Assembly (NCBI GenBank): GCA_944372335.1
Contig: CALVYQ010000001.1
Coordinates: 166,685 to 230,684, forward strand
Direction of reading: 5' to 3'
From: an uncultured Clostridia bacterium
GTDB taxonomy: Bacteria > Bacillota > Clostridia > Christensenellales > UBA1242
Length of the DNA stretch: 64,000 bases
In this document: positions 16,673 to 24,393 of the stretch, in pieces
Layout: each line of letters starts with the position of its first letter
Position numbering within the stretch: the first letter of the stretch is position 1
Position numbers and translations under genes: made by a program
Notes under the pieces: model-generated
What the model saw: only the letters and a program-made list of their open reading frames with translations
Told to the model about the DNA's origin: nothing
Database searches by the model: none

Positions 16673-16700
16673 TTGACAAATAGAATTTTTATGGTAAAAT
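16673..16700 (+). promoter_or_regulatory. Promoter of the 628-residue unknown gene
   Basis: TTGACA (16673-16678), 16-base spacer, TAAAAT (16695-16700), 18 bases before the chosen ATG. This rules out the longer in-frame start at 16673. Confidence 0.78.
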
Positions 16701-16717
16701 ATAACCAAGAGGTAGTT

Positions 16718-18604
16718 ATGAATAGTTTAGCTTTAACTGATGAAATTGTGCGTATTGCCATCAAATATTTCAATATGAATGAAGCTGAGGCCTTGGCAGC
16801 TCTTAATAAGGCTAAAGCTAAAAAAGATTTTAAAGCAAACTATTTATATTCAGTTTTGATTTCTGCCGAACCATATTTTAATAAGTATCTTGAACTTACG
16901 CCGGCAGACCTACAAAGAAAAATTGGGAGAGTGGCGTTTGAAAACTTAAATTATACAGCACTTTCAACAAATGAAACGCCAACAGAAACCACTCTTAGAC
17001 TTGGTGAATTTTTTAAGGTAACAAGTGACTATGGAATAAATCCATATAAAATTTTTTACTCATCTGTTATCTCAAAAGCTCACCTTTTTTATAATAAAGA
17101 AGGCTATTACAGCAATTATAAACAAAAAATTGGTAATTTTCTTGCGGTAGCAAATGCCATTGCTGAGCAATTAGGAGTTGATAGAGCTAAGGTGGCAAAG
17201 ATGTATGAGCGTTGCTCCACTCTTGCATATAAGGTTGACACAGAAAAAGTCTATAAAAATTATCATGCAATTAGACGACTTGGTTATTATGGAGAGATTA
17301 TATTAAACTCGGTTGACGTCAAAGAAATCTTGAGAAACAATCCAACTCTCTACTCTTGCTCTGAGAACCAAATTGAAAGTGCGTATTTATATCTCATCAA
17401 AAAGGCAGAAATATACAGTGCAAGAATGAAAGATAAAAGGCAGATTAAGGATATTCTTGCAAACTGGATAAAAAATAATTCCTCCGTTCTTGCTATAAAT
17501 GTTGACGGAATGAAGAATAAGGAGAGGGGATTATATAACTTTTTGATAACAATTGCAGATAGAAAAGAGGTGCAAGATATTCTTTATTCTATATTTGATA
17601 ATCCGACCAGCATCTCAGCTATTAATAAAATTTCTAGTGACACCTTTTTTAAAAATGATAATTACATGAAAGTAATCAAAACTCTTATTTGCTTTTTAGA
17701 TGAGGGGAATGAAAAAAACATTCCGTCAAATACATTAAGTTATTTAAAAAAATCAAAACTTGTCTATTCGATAGATTATCGAAGGTTATATTCTTTTTTA
17801 GATAAAATCAAAAATGATGATGAAGCAGAAACTTTATTACAAAAATTTATCGAAAAGGGAGATGCTGTTTTCTCATATTTTGACAGAAATAGTGATGAAG
17901 AAATAATCGAAAAGCTTAGAACAAACAAGATTTTCTATCGCATAAAACTCTATAACATGACAAAAGCTCAAATTGCTCAAAAGTTTTACGAAGTCTTTTC
18001 GTCTAATCCTGATGAGAGATTTAGTGAACTGAACAGCATTTTGAATGAAAATTATAACTTAGATTTAATCTGTTCTCATTTAAATAGAGCAGAGAAAGGG
18101 CTGTTTGATTTAGAAAAAGTTATTAAGAAGAACATTAATATATTACCTCTTGTAAAGGAAATTAAAAGCGATGTTTTTGACTTTTTAGGCACATATCTTG
18201 AGTATGAGGAGCGATATTTAAACACAAGCTTTGCTGAGTCAATGGATAGATTTTCTTCGAGAGTGGAAAGTGTAAAAAAAGAGATTGATGTGCTTTATAA
18301 TGCTGGGGCTATTGAGGCAAAAAAACAATATGATAATGTCGATGCTTTATATAATGCGTTTAAGAAAAATACTGATGAAAAGTTATTAAATGATAACAAT
18401 CCAATTCGCAAAAGGAAAGCTTTTTCTAGCCACTTAAACACGATAATTCAAGAGCTTGAAAATGGGCAAGAGACAAGGCAACTTTCCATATTTGATTTTA
18501 AAGAACAAAGCGATGACAGCGAAGCACTTATCATATTAAAAGAAATTCAAAAGCGATTTAATTTTATGGATAGGCTTGATGAAAGATTAGAAAAAGAAAA
18601 GTAA
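16718..18604 (+). CDS. Large uncharacterised helical protein
   Basis: A 628-residue soluble protein that I cannot assign. No signal peptide, membrane helix or known catalytic motif is visible. It is mostly helix with many Lys, Asn, Tyr and Glu. Segments such as VKEILRNNPTLYSCSENQIESAY recall helical-repeat (mTERF-like) units, but spacing is irregular and this is only a resemblance. A charged helical region runs from about residue 480 to the end. The ATG 16718 follows AGAGGTAG; the apparent upstream start overlaps the promoter. It is monocistronic. Confidence 0.75.
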   Translation: MNSLALTDEIVRIAIKYFNMNEAEALAALNKAKAKKDFKANYLYSVLISAEPYFNKYLELTPADLQRKIGRVAFENLNYTALSTNETPTETTLRLGEFFKVTSDYGINPYKIFYSSVISKAHLFYNKEGYYSNYKQKIGNFLAVANAIAEQLGVDRAKVAKMYERCSTLAYKVDTEKVYKNYHAIRRLGYYGEIILNSVDVKEILRNNPTLYSCSENQIESAYLYLIKKAEIYSARMKDKRQIKDILANWIKNNSSVLAINVDGMKNKERGLYNFLITIADRKEVQDILYSIFDNPTSISAINKISSDTFFKNDNYMKVIKTLICFLDEGNEKNIPSNTLSYLKKSKLVYSIDYRRLYSFLDKIKNDDEAETLLQKFIEKGDAVFSYFDRNSDEEIIEKLRTNKIFYRIKLYNMTKAQIAQKFYEVFSSNPDERFSELNSILNENYNLDLICSHLNRAEKGLFDLEKVIKKNINILPLVKEIKSDVFDFLGTYLEYEERYLNTSFAESMDRFSSRVESVKKEIDVLYNAGAIEAKKQYDNVDALYNAFKKNTDEKLLNDNNPIRKRKAFSSHLNTIIQELENGQETRQLSIFDFKEQSDDSEALIILKEIQKRFNFMDRLDERLEKEK

Positions 18605-19978: not shown

Positions 19979-20940
19979 TGAAAAAACGAGTTTATACATC
20001 AGTGCTAATTGTGCTAATTTTGGCATTACTATTTGTGCTTAAAATTTTTGTCAGTGACTACTTCTTTGATGCATTTTTTGGAATAATCGCTTGCATTGCT
20101 TCATTTGAAATGTCAAGGCTTTTATCAAAAACTAAACGTTACAATTTTCAGATTTTATCGGTGATTTTTCCAGCACTAATTCTTGCTTGTCACTTAATAT
20201 GTGCTCATTTTGCAAGTGCACTTGGTGATATCTATTGGATTTTGTGGGCTATTTTAATTGATTTTGCACTTATGCTTGTTGTGCTTGGCGTAACTTTCTT
20301 GATTCAACTTATCCGCAAAAAGAAAGTGCTTGAAGAGATGACAACTCGTGATGTGAAAAATATGTCAGTGGCTAAGTTTTCCTTTAAAAAATGTTTAAAT
20401 ACTCTTATTGTGTTTATCTATCCAGCATTTTTCTTCTTGTTTATGGTATTTGTCAATCATATCGGTGATTTGCCTCTTGCTAAACTCACAGATATATCTG
20501 TTGACTTCTCCATATTCGTCTTGATGACCGCAATTTTAATTCCTATGTTTTCAGATACCTTTGCTATGCTTACGGGTTCTCTTATTGGTGGAAAAAAATT
20601 ATGCCCAAGAATAAGTCCGGGAAAGACAATATCTGGCACAGTTGGTGGTGCAGTTTGGACTCTTCTTCTTATGTCTGCAGTTTGGCTAATCTTTGTGAAT
20701 ATCACAGGCTTTGACTTTATGTGGTCAAGTTTCCCAATCTGGGCATATCTCATCATTGTCCTTTTAGGAGTTGGTGTTGCTATTGTAGGCGATCTATTTG
20801 AAAGTATCTTAAAGCGTCATTCCGGCGTTAAAGATAGCGGTAGGCTTGTTCCGGGACATGGCGGAATACTCGACAGAATTGATTCCTACATTTTCATTGC
20901 TCCATACATTTTACTTGCTTTCTGGATTTTTGCTTTATAA
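19978..20940 (+). CDS. cdsA: Phosphatidate cytidylyltransferase
   Basis: A 320-residue polytopic membrane enzyme with about eight helices. The C-terminal CDP-diglyceride synthase signature (LKRHSGVKDSGRLVPGHGGILDRID) lies at about residues 278-303, with Lys and Asp residues placed as required. It makes CDP-diacylglycerol from phosphatidic acid and CTP, the entry to all phospholipids. A charged cytoplasmic insert (RKKKVLEEMTTRDVKN) at about residue 105 lengthens it relative to the usual 260-280. Confidence 0.94.
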   Translation: MKKRVYTSVLIVLILALLFVLKIFVSDYFFDAFFGIIACIASFEMSRLLSKTKRYNFQILSVIFPALILACHLICAHFASALGDIYWILWAILIDFALMLVVLGVTFLIQLIRKKKVLEEMTTRDVKNMSVAKFSFKKCLNTLIVFIYPAFFFLFMVFVNHIGDLPLAKLTDISVDFSIFVLMTAILIPMFSDTFAMLTGSLIGGKKLCPRISPGKTISGTVGGAVWTLLLMSAVWLIFVNITGFDFMWSSFPIWAYLIIVLLGVGVAIVGDLFESILKRHSGVKDSGRLVPGHGGILDRIDSYIFIAPYILLAFWIFAL

Positions 20941-21003
20941 ATGTAAATAGGCTATTTAACTAATGATTTTTTTGGAAACTCATGAAATCATAGGAGTGAA
21001 ATT

Positions 21004-22149
21004 ATGACAACATTTTTATATGTGTTACTTGCGATTGTGGTTCTTCTATTCATGGTTATGGTTCATGAGCTTGGCCACTACATCGCAGGGAAAATTCTTA
21101 AATTTAAAATAGAAGAGTTTTCAATTGGCTTTGGTAAGGCTATCTTTTCTCATACTTCAAAAAAGACGGGTGAGAAGTTTTCTCTTCGTATCTTTCCTCT
21201 TGGTGGTTACTGTTCTTTCTATGGCGAAGAAGACGATGGCAAGATGTCAACAGAAAATGGTGTAACTTTCAACAGTCAAAAGCCTTGGAAGAGAATCATT
21301 GTCTTTTTAGCTGGCGTGACCATGAACTTTCTAACTGCCATTCTCTTTTCTTGGATATTATTATGTGCAGTAGGCTATGATGTTCCCCAGATAATCGATT
21401 TCAGCACGACTATAAATGTTGATGAGAGCGGAAATAGTATCTTTAAAAAGGGTGACGTTATAACTCATATAAACGGTCAAAAAATAGATTTTGCTTTTGG
21501 TGTAAATTTTAACACAGCGATTTCTAATCAAAAGGAATCGGCAAAAGAATATTATGAAAGCGAGACCTATGACGGTGGAGAATATGTCTTTAATATGACT
21601 GTTCGCCGTGACGGAGAGAGCATTCCATTAAAAAATGTAAAAATAATACAAGAGGTTGTAACGGAAACTGACAGTGAAACGGGTGAAGTTAAAACAAGCT
21701 ATGTATATTTAATGGGGCTAGAAAGCACAGAAGATAAAGTCTGCACACAGGCTTATAAATATGGCTTCTTTGAGGGGCTTGGTCGCTCGTTCTCCATGGC
21801 ATTTGGCTTTGCTTGGGTGGTGCTAAAAAGTCTATTTATGCTCATAACTTTCCAAATTCCAATAACTGAAATGGGCGGAACAATAACAACAATTGCCACT
21901 ATGGCAGAATATACAGCTATAAATCCAGCAAATCTTTTGATTTTTATTCCACTAATTTCAGCCAATCTTGCAGTATTCAATCTGTTGCCGTTTCCAGCAT
22001 TAGATGGTGCTCATGTTCTTTTCACAGTCATCGAATGGATACGTGGAAAGCCGATAAATCGAAAAGTGGAAAATACCATTCATTTTGTTGGCATTTGCAT
22101 ACTTTTTGCCTTTGTCGTCATTGTGGATATTCTGCATTTTATACTTTAA
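21004..22149 (+). CDS. rseP: RseP/RasP site-2 intramembrane zinc metalloprotease
   Basis: A 381-residue membrane protease with the zinc-binding HELGHY motif in helix 1 (about residues 22-27), a PDZ domain in the middle (about residues 130-240) and the second active-site motif NLLPFPALDGAHVLF near residue 325. It cleaves anti-sigma factors and signal peptide remnants within the membrane. dxr, which often sits between cdsA and rseP, is absent. A terminator follows, so it ends the operon. Confidence 0.95.
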   Translation: MTTFLYVLLAIVVLLFMVMVHELGHYIAGKILKFKIEEFSIGFGKAIFSHTSKKTGEKFSLRIFPLGGYCSFYGEEDDGKMSTENGVTFNSQKPWKRIIVFLAGVTMNFLTAILFSWILLCAVGYDVPQIIDFSTTINVDESGNSIFKKGDVITHINGQKIDFAFGVNFNTAISNQKESAKEYYESETYDGGEYVFNMTVRRDGESIPLKNVKIIQEVVTETDSETGEVKTSYVYLMGLESTEDKVCTQAYKYGFFEGLGRSFSMAFGFAWVVLKSLFMLITFQIPITEMGGTITTIATMAEYTAINPANLLIFIPLISANLAVFNLLPFPALDGAHVLFTVIEWIRGKPINRKVENTIHFVGICILFAFVVIVDILHFIL

Positions 22150-22150
22150 C

Positions 22151-22177
22151 AAAAATAAGGAACTCTCCTTATTTTTT
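22151..22177 (+). terminator. frr-rseP operon terminator
   Basis: 11-bp stem (22151-22161 with 22166-22176), four-base loop, T-run. Confidence 0.88.
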
Positions 22178-22200
22178 ATTATTTTTGATATTTAAACAAC

Positions 22201-22229
22201 TTGACAAAAGGCGGTTAAGTTTATAAAAT
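22201..22229 (+). promoter_or_regulatory. Promoter of the PolC-like exonuclease gene
   Basis: Perfect TTGACA (22201-22206), 17-base spacer, TAAAAT (22224-22229). Only seven bases separate the -10 box from the ATG, so the mRNA is predicted to be leaderless. Confidence 0.82.
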
Positions 22230-22236
22230 ATATACT

Positions 22237-23763
22237 ATGAATTTTGAACAGGAGTTTAATCAAAAATTTGGTGAAAAATTTCCAGATTTATATTTAAAAA
22301 ATGTTGTCGCTGGCAAGGATACCTGCACGGTGACGTTCCTTTATCCATCTACTGATGAAACATTAAAAGAGGGAGAAAAAGAAGAAATAACAAAATTTGT
22401 TGAAGAAAAACTTGCTCTATCTTATTTACATTTGAAAGTAAAATTTATGAAAGCTTATGTTGAAGAAAAATTGATAAGAAAACTACTTTTTACTGTGCTT
22501 GAAGATAAATTCCAATTGCTAAAATCATATATTCATGATGAAGACGTTAAGGTGGAGATATCAGAAATTGACTGCACAATAACTTTTAATGTCAGTCCTC
22601 GTATTGCTCAATTTTTCGCAGATAATAAGGCATCAGTGTTTATCGCCAAGTCTTTAAAGGAAAATTTTTTAATTAATTTTAATATCAATCTTAATATTTT
22701 AGACGATAAAGTTGATGAAGTTGATATTGATAATATAGAGATCAGAACAACCGCTCGAAAAACTCCACGCTATGACGTTTTAGTGATTAAAGAGGCAATA
22801 GGGCAAAACATTCCGCCTAAACCGGAGTATATCTCAAATATTCAATCGCCAAAGACATCTGTTATTTTGGCAGGCTATATTAGCGATTTAGAGTGCAAGG
22901 ATTTTATTATTAAAAAAGGGGCACGTGCTGGTCAACAAAAGTCTTACTACAAATTTAATCTTAATGATGGTAAAGGGAAAATGGAATGTATCTACTTCTG
23001 TCCAAAGAAAAATAAAGCTGTTATGGACGCTTTAGAAGAGAATATGTATCTCTTACTTCATGGAGATGTAAGGCTTGGATTAAATGGTAAATTTACACTA
23101 TATATCGATAAACTTGCTCTTGCAAGTGAAGTAGAGAAGAAAGAAGTCGAAGAAAAGAAACAGGTTAAAGAAGTGGAGATTGAACGCCTTGGAGCTCTTG
23201 AACAAGACAATATGTTTGGTGATGTTGAAAAATATAACCGTAAAATAATGGATCACAACATCGTGGTATTCGATGTCGAAACAACAGGCTTAAATCCAGA
23301 GGTTGACCAAATAATTGAGCTTGGTGCTGTGAAAATTGAAAGAGGAAATATTGTTGAAAAATTCTCTACTTTTGTGAAGCCTACAATTGAAATTCCTTAT
23401 GAGGTTACAGAACTTACGCATATCACCAACGAAATGGTTGATGACGCTCCAGATATTGAAGATGTTATTAGACAGTTTTATGATTTTTCTAAGGACTGTG
23501 TGCTTTGTGGTCACAATGTGATTAATTTCGATATTAAGTTTATAAGACGATTTGGAAGTTATATAAATTTAGAATTTAACAACGACTTAATCGACACAAT
23601 GAACGAAGCAAGAGTTTCCCGCTTGAAAATTTCACGTTTTAATCTTGGAACGGTGGCAAAAGCTTTGGGTATTGAGCTTAAAGGAGCACACCGAGCTTGG
23701 AATGATGCTTTTGCGACTGCACAGATACTTTTAAAACTCAATGAATTGGGCAGAAAATTGTAA
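22237..23763 (+). CDS. polC: Truncated PolC: N-terminal domain, OB-fold and DEDDh exonuclease only
   Basis: A 508-residue protein at the normal polC site between rseP and rimP, where full PolC has about 1430 residues. Residues 1-190 match the PolC N-terminal region, and about 205-305 form the OB-fold (VILAGYISDLE...YYKFNLNDGKGKMECIYF). A short charged linker follows, then a complete DEDDh proofreading exonuclease: FDVETTG (D346, E348), HNVINFD (D432) and HRAWND (H485, D490). The PHP part that normally lies between OB and exonuclease is missing, as are the rest of PHP and the whole polymerase. It ends cleanly with no decayed tail in the 170 bases that follow. The enzyme is probably an active 3'-5' exonuclease, not a replicase (inference). 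Confidence 0.85.
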   Translation: MNFEQEFNQKFGEKFPDLYLKNVVAGKDTCTVTFLYPSTDETLKEGEKEEITKFVEEKLALSYLHLKVKFMKAYVEEKLIRKLLFTVLEDKFQLLKSYIHDEDVKVEISEIDCTITFNVSPRIAQFFADNKASVFIAKSLKENFLINFNINLNILDDKVDEVDIDNIEIRTTARKTPRYDVLVIKEAIGQNIPPKPEYISNIQSPKTSVILAGYISDLECKDFIIKKGARAGQQKSYYKFNLNDGKGKMECIYFCPKKNKAVMDALEENMYLLLHGDVRLGLNGKFTLYIDKLALASEVEKKEVEEKKQVKEVEIERLGALEQDNMFGDVEKYNRKIMDHNIVVFDVETTGLNPEVDQIIELGAVKIERGNIVEKFSTFVKPTIEIPYEVTELTHITNEMVDDAPDIEDVIRQFYDFSKDCVLCGHNVINFDIKFIRRFGSYINLEFNNDLIDTMNEARVSRLKISRFNLGTVAKALGIELKGAHRAWNDAFATAQILLKLNELGRKL

Positions 23764-23934: not shown

Positions 23935-24393
23935 ATGGCAAAAGTCAAAGAGATAAGCGAAGCAAAAGTTAGACCAATCATTGAAGAAATGGGCTATGAG
24001 CTTGTAGAAGTTGAATACAAAAAGGAGTTCGATGGTATGAGCCTCATCTTTACAATCGACAAAGAAGAAGGTGTGACTATTGATGACTGTGAGAAGGTTA
24101 ATAAGGCTATTGACCCAATCATTGACGAATTAAATCCAACAAATGATGAGCCTTACACTTTAGTAGTTTCAAGTCCGGGGCTTGATAGACAGCTTAAAAC
24201 CGACAGAGATTTAAAACGCACTTTAAATAAAGATGTAACTCTTACGCTCTTTTCTAAACTTGATGGAAAAAAGAATTTTGAAGGTACGCTTATAAATTTT
24301 GATGATAAAACTGTCGTACTTAAGATAGGTGACGAGGAAAAGCAATTTGACAGAGATAAAATTGCTGGCTTGAAGCTTGTTATAAAATTTTAA
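23935..24393 (+). CDS. rimP: Ribosome maturation factor RimP
   Basis: A 152-residue protein with the RimP pattern: IIEEMGYELVEVEYKKEFDG, LIFTIDKEEGVTIDDCEKVN, then VVSSPGLDRQLKTDRDLKR and a C-terminal SH3-like domain. It assists 30S assembly. It starts at ATG 23935 after AGGAGG; an in-frame GTG at 23881 would translate the leader hairpin and is rejected. First gene of the nusA-infB operon, in standard order. Confidence 0.95.
   Translation: MAKVKEISEAKVRPIIEEMGYELVEVEYKKEFDGMSLIFTIDKEEGVTIDDCEKVNKAIDPIIDELNPTNDEPYTLVVSSPGLDRQLKTDRDLKRTLNKDVTLTLFSKLDGKKNFEGTLINFDDKTVVLKIGDEEKQFDRDKIAGLKLVIKF

Follow-up and report, generated by a model that had tools for sequence, protein, structure and literature searches.

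A stand-alone PolC-derived protein at the polC locus of an uncultured Clostridia bacterium, a candidate trans-acting proofreader for DnaE

In the genome of an uncultured Clostridia bacterium, we found that the polC locus encodes a protein of 508 aa made of the N-terminal domain (NTD), the OB-fold domain and the DEDDh exonuclease domain (Exo) of PolC, with neither the PHP nor the polymerase part. The short form is real, old and conserved, and it is not an artefact. Its architecture, PolC ancestry and synteny, its catalytic residues and linker motif, its exclusion of PolC, the sole DnaE found beside it and the purifying selection on its gene were all observed in the data. Judging from sequence, we think it rather probable that the protein is a detached PolC proofreader that is held on the sliding clamp and serves DnaE in trans, as epsilon does in E. 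coli. The window, meaning the whole stretch of DNA that was analysed, comprises 64,000 nucleotides of contig CALVYQ010000001.1 (assembly GCA_944372335.1, Christensenellales), and all coordinates refer to it.

Results

A short gene occupies the polC locus

The polC locus in the window has the order rseP - short gene - rimP - nusA and contains the following features:

21004..22149, + strand: rseP, upstream synteny marker (RseP matches TIGR00054 above cut-off)
22201..22229, + strand: promoter-like TTGACA-17-TAAAAT, with 7 nt between its end and the ATG of the short gene
22237..23763, + strand: gene of the stand-alone PolC-derived protein (NTD - OB - linker with clamp motif - DEDDh Exo, 508 aa, ATG start)
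22237..22701, + strand: NTD, residues 1-155, composed of two alpha/beta subdomains and homologous to that of PolC
22774..23130, + strand: OB-fold domain, residues 180-298 (Pfam OB at 210-293, profile alignment and model)
23203..23217, + strand: putative sliding-clamp-binding motif QDNMF, residues 323-327, in the low-confidence, probably disordered OB-Exo linker
23251..23757, + strand: DEDDh 3'-5' exonuclease domain, residues 339-507 (Pfam RNase_T at 343-498; D346, E348, D432, H485, D490)
23935..24393, + strand: rimP, downstream synteny marker (best model PRK00092, score below its cut-off)
from 24415, following rimP: nusA (NusA matches TIGR01953 above cut-off)

The first-pass annotation had described a gene of 508 residues, instead of about 1430, at the polC position, and we confirmed the open reading frame, with rseP upstream and rimP-nusA downstream. 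In the window's genus, the short gene is flanked by rseP and rimP in 35 of the 36 loci that we fetched; in the remaining locus, rseP was not found within 1.3 kb upstream of the short gene. Among 11 short loci fetched from other families, seven have both neighbours, three have one neighbour and one lies on a contig too short to tell. The short gene is under purifying selection, with a dN/dS of about 0.05 against a relative of 82% identity (dS is saturated at 2.1); when dN/dS was calculated by domain, dS was often saturated and the value then not computable.

The promoter-like sequence keeps the same geometry relative to the ATG in 36/36 genus loci and in 0/10 loci of other families, where geometry was scored as at least 10 of 12 matches with TTGACA exact and 6 or 8 nt to the ATG. 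Within the window, the geometry is present at 4 of the 73 ORFs of at least 120 aa (many of them spurious), the short gene included. The conservation of this geometry in the genus suggests that the mRNA of the short gene is leaderless or near-leaderless. The other three sites in the window lie upstream of 8478 (+), 47005 (+) and 37872 (-), and the genes at these sites are an ArsP_2-like gene, ruvC and a pseudouridine synthase gene.

At 20940-22237, cdsA is followed directly by rseP, and rseP by the polC remnant, with no ispC- and ispG-like genes between them; such genes (named by eye) are present in the same stretch of genomes G055 and G052, and the MEP pathway may have been lost or moved in the window's genus. 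A 643-aa ORF at 16673-18604, upstream of the frr-uppS-cdsA cluster, has no Pfam match at E ≤ 0.01 (searched from 16718 on, 628 aa).

The protein aligns with PolC except for two missing pieces

The PolC model (1445 positions) is matched solely in its exonuclease part, with residues 331-502 of the protein aligned to model positions 414-585, and neither PolC cut-off is reached by these exonuclease-only matches (TIGR01405, 162.1 bits against 1043.45; PRK00448, 175.3 bits against 873). We found no PHP or polymerase-III Pfam domain in the 508-aa protein at E ≤ 1; the sole polymerase-named Pfam match is a weak family-B exonuclease model that covers the same Exo region. When a profile of 20 short proteins was aligned with nine full-length PolCs of the order, the NTD, OB and Exo aligned (E 2.8e-62) and the first PHP segment of full PolC was skipped. 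The NTD by itself matches PolC NTDs by profile (E 3.5e-8, 143 columns). By these alignments, the protein lacks two separate pieces of PolC, namely the PHP part that precedes Exo and all that follows Exo, and no one frameshift or misassembly accounts for both. The claim made at first pass that both domains are absent, including the PHP segment that normally precedes the exonuclease, is therefore borne out, and the alignment to full PolC that it called for places all three remaining domains.

The AlphaFold model (mean pLDDT 86, pTM 0.43) has three well-formed domains with loose linkers between them. The best PDB structure match of the model, 9qpc, is a PolC (386 alignment columns, rmsd 22, the domain positions differing), and Exo alone superposes at 1.3 Å over 166 columns on 9qrn, a second entry for this PolC chain. 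The two best PDB sequence matches are PolC-type. Exo scores 175 bits with the PolC model, up to 149 bits with other DEDD exonuclease models, and 114, 86, 75 and 73 bits with models named dnaq or epsilon subunit; it falls below the cut-off of TIGR01406 dnaQ_proteo (70.2 bits against 222.7) and above that of the broad subfamily domain TIGR00573 (113.7 bits against 71.5). Structure matches of the NTD are weak and point to KH and ring-building domains (best E 5e-4, TM 0.43). The 50 PDB matches listed for the NTD consist chiefly of KH-like, BON, ring-building and ribosomal folds, and no chain among them is named tau or PolC; the PolC NTD has been likened to tau domain V (PMC12926913). In a viral structure library, the 50 matches listed are mostly exonuclease-type, and none of them covers the whole protein well.

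The short form is conserved in the genus and does not co-occur with PolC

All 37 genus genomes of a first survey have a match to the short form. In a survey of 75 genomes of the genus, every one, relatives that are at least 90% complete included, has a 508-585-aa frame with an RNase_T match, and the short gene is the sole RNase_T match in 64 of them. The first-pass reading of a clean domain loss rather than decay thus stands for the genus, on the strength of 75/75 genomes and the low dN/dS (dS saturated), and the same short gene that it proposed to look for in relatives is present in this genus and in 13 families of the order, among the matches listed.

Elsewhere in the order, 24 genomes of other families divide into 10 with a gene of similar length, 2 with a degenerate form, 11 with a full PolC frame and one, 51% complete, with PolC pieces only. 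Among the matches listed for 141 genomes of the order, we counted 67 short forms with Exo covered (the profile covered to its end), 18 short forms with degenerate Exo, 51 full PolCs (above cut-off), three partial PolCs (G268, G277 and G308, probably broken at contig ends) and two genomes with neither form (G260 and G293). The short form and PolC were found together in 0 of these 141 genomes; the 67 Exo-covered short forms come from 13 families and the PolCs above cut-off from 12, with no family having both, again among the matches listed. When 196 genomes of the class were surveyed, all eight full-coverage matches, the window's included, were in the window's order (among the matches listed). 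In this class survey, 34 genomes are without a match at threshold, and weak degenerate forms may be hidden outside the order. A 481-aa gene of G187, a partial match from outside the order, was rejected as a member of the PolC-remnant family; it is another DnaQ-like protein, with a BRCT-like C-terminal part (by eye).

DnaE is the sole C-family polymerase found

The first-pass annotation had argued that the polymerase must be encoded elsewhere, as either a split PolC or a DnaE-type enzyme, and only the second of these was found. A single C-family polymerase match, located on another contig, was found in the window's genome (G000; 1.2 Mb in 14 contigs, 85% complete). It is DnaE-type, with 1434 bits against the cut-off of 1260 for the DnaE-type alpha model, and lies far below the PolC cut-offs. 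The short gene is the only RNase_T match of the genome. PF07733 is matched exactly once in 47 of 49 short-form genomes (in G019 as a short piece); of the other two, G014 is without a match and G025 shows two pieces. No PolC match beyond the level of Exo or DnaE was found in 85 short-form genomes among the matches listed, and a split PolC elsewhere was rejected on this count. Incomplete assembly as the cause of PolC absence was also rejected, since the genus relatives of at least 90% completeness concur and the assemblies contain the polC locus, occupied by the short gene.

The nine metal ligands of the PHP site (HHDHEHCDH) are kept in 40/40 DnaEs that have an N-terminus, including those of G052 and G055, which belong to the lineages with a degenerate Exo; one further DnaE is cut by a contig end and falls outside this count. 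Because these ligands are intact, DnaE may proofread by itself.

The length of DnaX in the genus raised the idea that the NTD replaces an absent tau tail, which we dropped because the tail was found in the -1 frame behind a run of A9-A10. In the 36 matching genus genomes, DnaX frames measure 366-405 aa; 23 of the 24 other genomes have frames of 501-612 aa, and the last has a 254-aa piece. In dnaX of the genus (L218:1498-2924 in G000:C8; L225-L239), the zero frame ends at an A9 or A10 run; it is 364-372 aa long in 15 of 16 genes, and the remaining gene, read from its first M, gives 237 aa. In 16/16 the run is followed by an open -1 frame of 114-142 aa. The sole dnaX examined from another family (G043) is without this arrangement. 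This suggests, from the reading frames, that tau is made by slippage in the genus; a two-ORF dnaX type with slippage has been described (PMC3711429).

The OB-Exo linker carries a putative clamp-binding motif

The published consensus of the clamp motif is QL[S/D]LF or QxxLF, and the clamp motif of E. coli alpha is QADMF (PMC12309361). We found the pattern Qxx[LMIF][FLV] in the linker of 47 of 48 short proteins (the exception being L055, of G041). Among 23 further proteins, 21 have it and two, G250 and G258, do not, for a total of 68/71; all three proteins without the motif have an intact Exo. In five of the 23 further proteins the motif is in the linker yet off the aligned columns. The pattern Qxx[LMI]F is present in 25/25 proteins of a set that partly overlaps the 48. 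The linker flanks of QDNMF are poorly conserved, and residues 322-328 form a stretch of low pLDDT that is among the least confident parts of the model, which is what a partner-docking peptide would be expected to show. In the nine full PolCs of the order, no such motif was found in the 60 residues before PHP (0/9), and a motif of the same kind is present at the C-terminus (9/9), a part that is absent from the short form. The conserved clamp-type motif supports a predicted role of the short protein in the replisome.

Exo is intact in most short forms and degenerate in three lineages

As had been noted at first pass, all five DEDDh residues (D346, E348, D432, H485 and D490) are present in the sequence of the window's protein. 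The DEDDh set is complete in 47 of 48 short proteins (exception G055), in 23 of 23 further short proteins and in 25/25 of the set that partly overlaps the 48; among the Exo-covered short forms of the order survey, 38 were checked (15 + 23) and 38 are intact. In families f17 and f20 and in genus g195 of family f90, the set is wholly or nearly lost in 18/18 proteins, of which that of G330 retains the first D, and the proteins retain a length of 484-548 aa. Family f90 also has intact forms, so the catalytic loss probably took place more than once. The linker motif is relaxed in these lineages, with the strict pattern in the linker of 9/18 proteins. Since the protein is kept in three lineages although its Exo is degenerate, proofreading by the protein is not its sole role there.

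Some full PolCs of the order also have a degenerate Exo, which indicates that DEDD proofreading can be lost in the order; these PolCs are the reverse of the window's case, within the same order. Of six PolCs fetched from family f11, five have an Exo-sized region with degenerate catalytic residues and that of G304 is intact. Among the matches listed in the order survey, four of the five degenerate ones are without any Exo match, and the Exo match of G360 lies only in a separate gene. The PolC of G310 (family f26) has a degenerate Exo, and in the PolC of G046 (f11) Y replaces the first D.

A single ancestral loss is the simplest reading of the trees

In a DnaE tree of 31 genomes (quick method, unrooted), the nine full-PolC rows form one side of a branch with support 100, and short form versus PolC needs one change on the tree. 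In an Exo tree of 41 rows (midpoint root), 17 short forms form one side of a branch (90/94) and lie among PolC exonucleases. Four of the five DnaQ-like rows are separate from them, and the remaining one sits on a very long branch. A PolC of the order clusters with Christensenella in this tree (100/97), which points to Christensenellales, in the GTDB sense, as the probable identity of the order. Most simply, these data are read as a single ancestral loss of the PHP and polymerase parts within the order. The DnaE tree, being unrooted with one change, gives no direction and would also allow the short form to be ancestral, with full PolC gaining its PHP and polymerase parts later. We regard this reversed polarity as highly improbable, because PolC-length frames with Exo matches are spread over the rest of the class and full-coverage short forms are found only inside the order (both among the matches listed), and because the Exo tree (midpoint root) places the short forms as one clade among PolC exonucleases.

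Discussion

In the reading that we favour, polC would have lost its PHP and polymerase parts, and the remnant would have become a detached subunit of a DnaE replicase. Its exonuclease would remove, in trans, bases misinserted by DnaE; the QxxMF/QxxLF motif in the flexible OB-Exo linker would tether the protein to the sliding clamp, and the NTD and OB would contact DnaE and/or DNA. The short protein would act for DnaE as epsilon (DnaQ) does in E. coli, both proofreading and bridging polymerase and clamp, so that the trans-proofreading part would have outlived the PolC polymerase and gained a clamp anchor in its linker. That the protein is a nuclease, binds the clamp, contacts DnaE and bridges the two is what we infer from sequence features. 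The PolC exonuclease of B. subtilis proofreads DnaE in trans: DnaE brings in PolC and makes the primer end accessible to the exonuclease (PMC5627055). In E. coli, epsilon binds the clamp via a canonical motif and tightens the contact between Pol III and the clamp (PMC3642679), and it has roles beyond proofreading (PMC4478557). The missing DEDDh set in 18/18 genomes of three lineages and the intact PHP site in 40/40 DnaEs count against a proofreader, as do the relaxed motif of those lineages, the three intact-Exo proteins without the motif and the degenerate Exo of some full PolCs of the order; a bridging role would explain why the three lineages keep the protein without catalytic residues. The first-pass suggestion of a proofreading partner is thus upheld in part: the conserved putative clamp motif favours it, but in the lineages with degenerate Exo proofreading is not the only role.

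The protein could instead be mainly a structural bridge, using NTD, OB and motif to keep DnaE on the clamp or to connect the clamp with DNA and the clamp loader; its nuclease would then be secondary, and DnaE would proofread itself by its PHP domain. The full-length versions without a catalytic set, the intact PHP site, the conserved clamp-type motif and the strengthening of the Pol III-clamp contact by epsilon (PMC3642679) all fit such a bridge. We nevertheless consider it rather improbable, as DEDDh conservation of 47/48 and 23/23 speaks for the nuclease, a sole RNase_T match in 64/75 genus genomes is hard to explain if the nuclease is unimportant, and the motif itself is relaxed in the very lineages that have no catalytic residues. 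A clamp-associated repair exonuclease, acting in mismatch repair or in Okazaki-fragment or stalled-fork processing rather than proofreading an elongating polymerase, is unlikely but deserves consideration: many repair enzymes have clamp motifs, as is generally known (in general terms, PMC12309361), and the PHP site of DnaE is already intact. However, PolC descent and the polC locus point to the replicase, other RNase_T proteins are scarce in the genus, and among the matches listed the short form and PolC are mutually exclusive.

We find it scarcely credible that the short gene is a vestige, as a chance survivor of ongoing loss, or an artefact of assembly, and for the genus conservation has already refuted this. 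Partial decay in the lineages without the catalytic set and the assembly of the window's genome and nearly all its relatives in several contigs would fit a vestige. Against it stand the presence in 75/75 genus genomes, the dN/dS of about 0.05 (dS saturated), the promoter geometry kept in 36/36 genus loci, the same architecture in 13 families (among the matches listed) and the two separate missing segments.

Compared with full-length PolC of Firmicutes such as B. subtilis, the short form shares the locus, NTD, OB and DEDDh exonuclease; in contrast, it has no PHP and polymerase (about 510 aa versus about 1400 aa), and its putative clamp motif is in the OB-Exo linker rather than at the C-terminus. 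It would resemble E. coli DnaQ in being a DEDDh exonuclease encoded apart from a DnaE-type polymerase and in having a clamp motif that adjoins the Exo domain (QTSMAF at the end of epsilon; PMC4478557); unlike DnaQ, its Exo is closest to that of PolC, it carries the PolC NTD and OB, and its motif precedes Exo. The Exo-less PolC variants of Clostridia and Negativicutes (PMC3919608) are likewise rearranged PolCs in Clostridia, but they show the reciprocal loss, keeping the polymerase and losing the exonuclease. In Bacteroidetes, an N-terminal Exo serves DnaE1, as the short protein would serve DnaE, but there it is fused, by an event unrelated to that of PolC (PMC3919608).

Three bacterial replicative sets have been distinguished, DnaE1-only, PolC+DnaE1 and PolC+DnaE3, with Clostridia assigned to PolC+DnaE1 (PMC3919608; PMC12926913, a survey based on complete genomes). 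The excerpts of these two papers contain no description of a stand-alone PolC N-terminal/OB/Exo protein, and we found none in the open literature among the matches listed by title and abstract start. As far as the literature is searchable, a stand-alone proofreader made from PolC is undescribed, which agrees with the first-pass view of the arrangement. Our guess is that automatic annotation may label the short gene 'PolC'. We give an even chance to a fourth bacterial replicase set, DnaE1 plus a detached, clamp-tethered PolC remnant, in which the linker motif would have arisen as the C-terminal one was lost, and the exonuclease would later have died in three lineages while the polymerase-clamp bridge stayed.

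If the proofreader reading is true, proofreading and synthesis would be separable inside PolC, and the short-form bacteria would be a natural test of what lasting service PolC gives to DnaE, whether exonuclease, tether or both, with the intact-Exo and degenerate-Exo lineages as ready-made comparisons. According to published abstracts, PolC inhibitors such as ibezapolstat target the PolC polymerase; bacteria with the short form would be without the polymerase that such inhibitors target.
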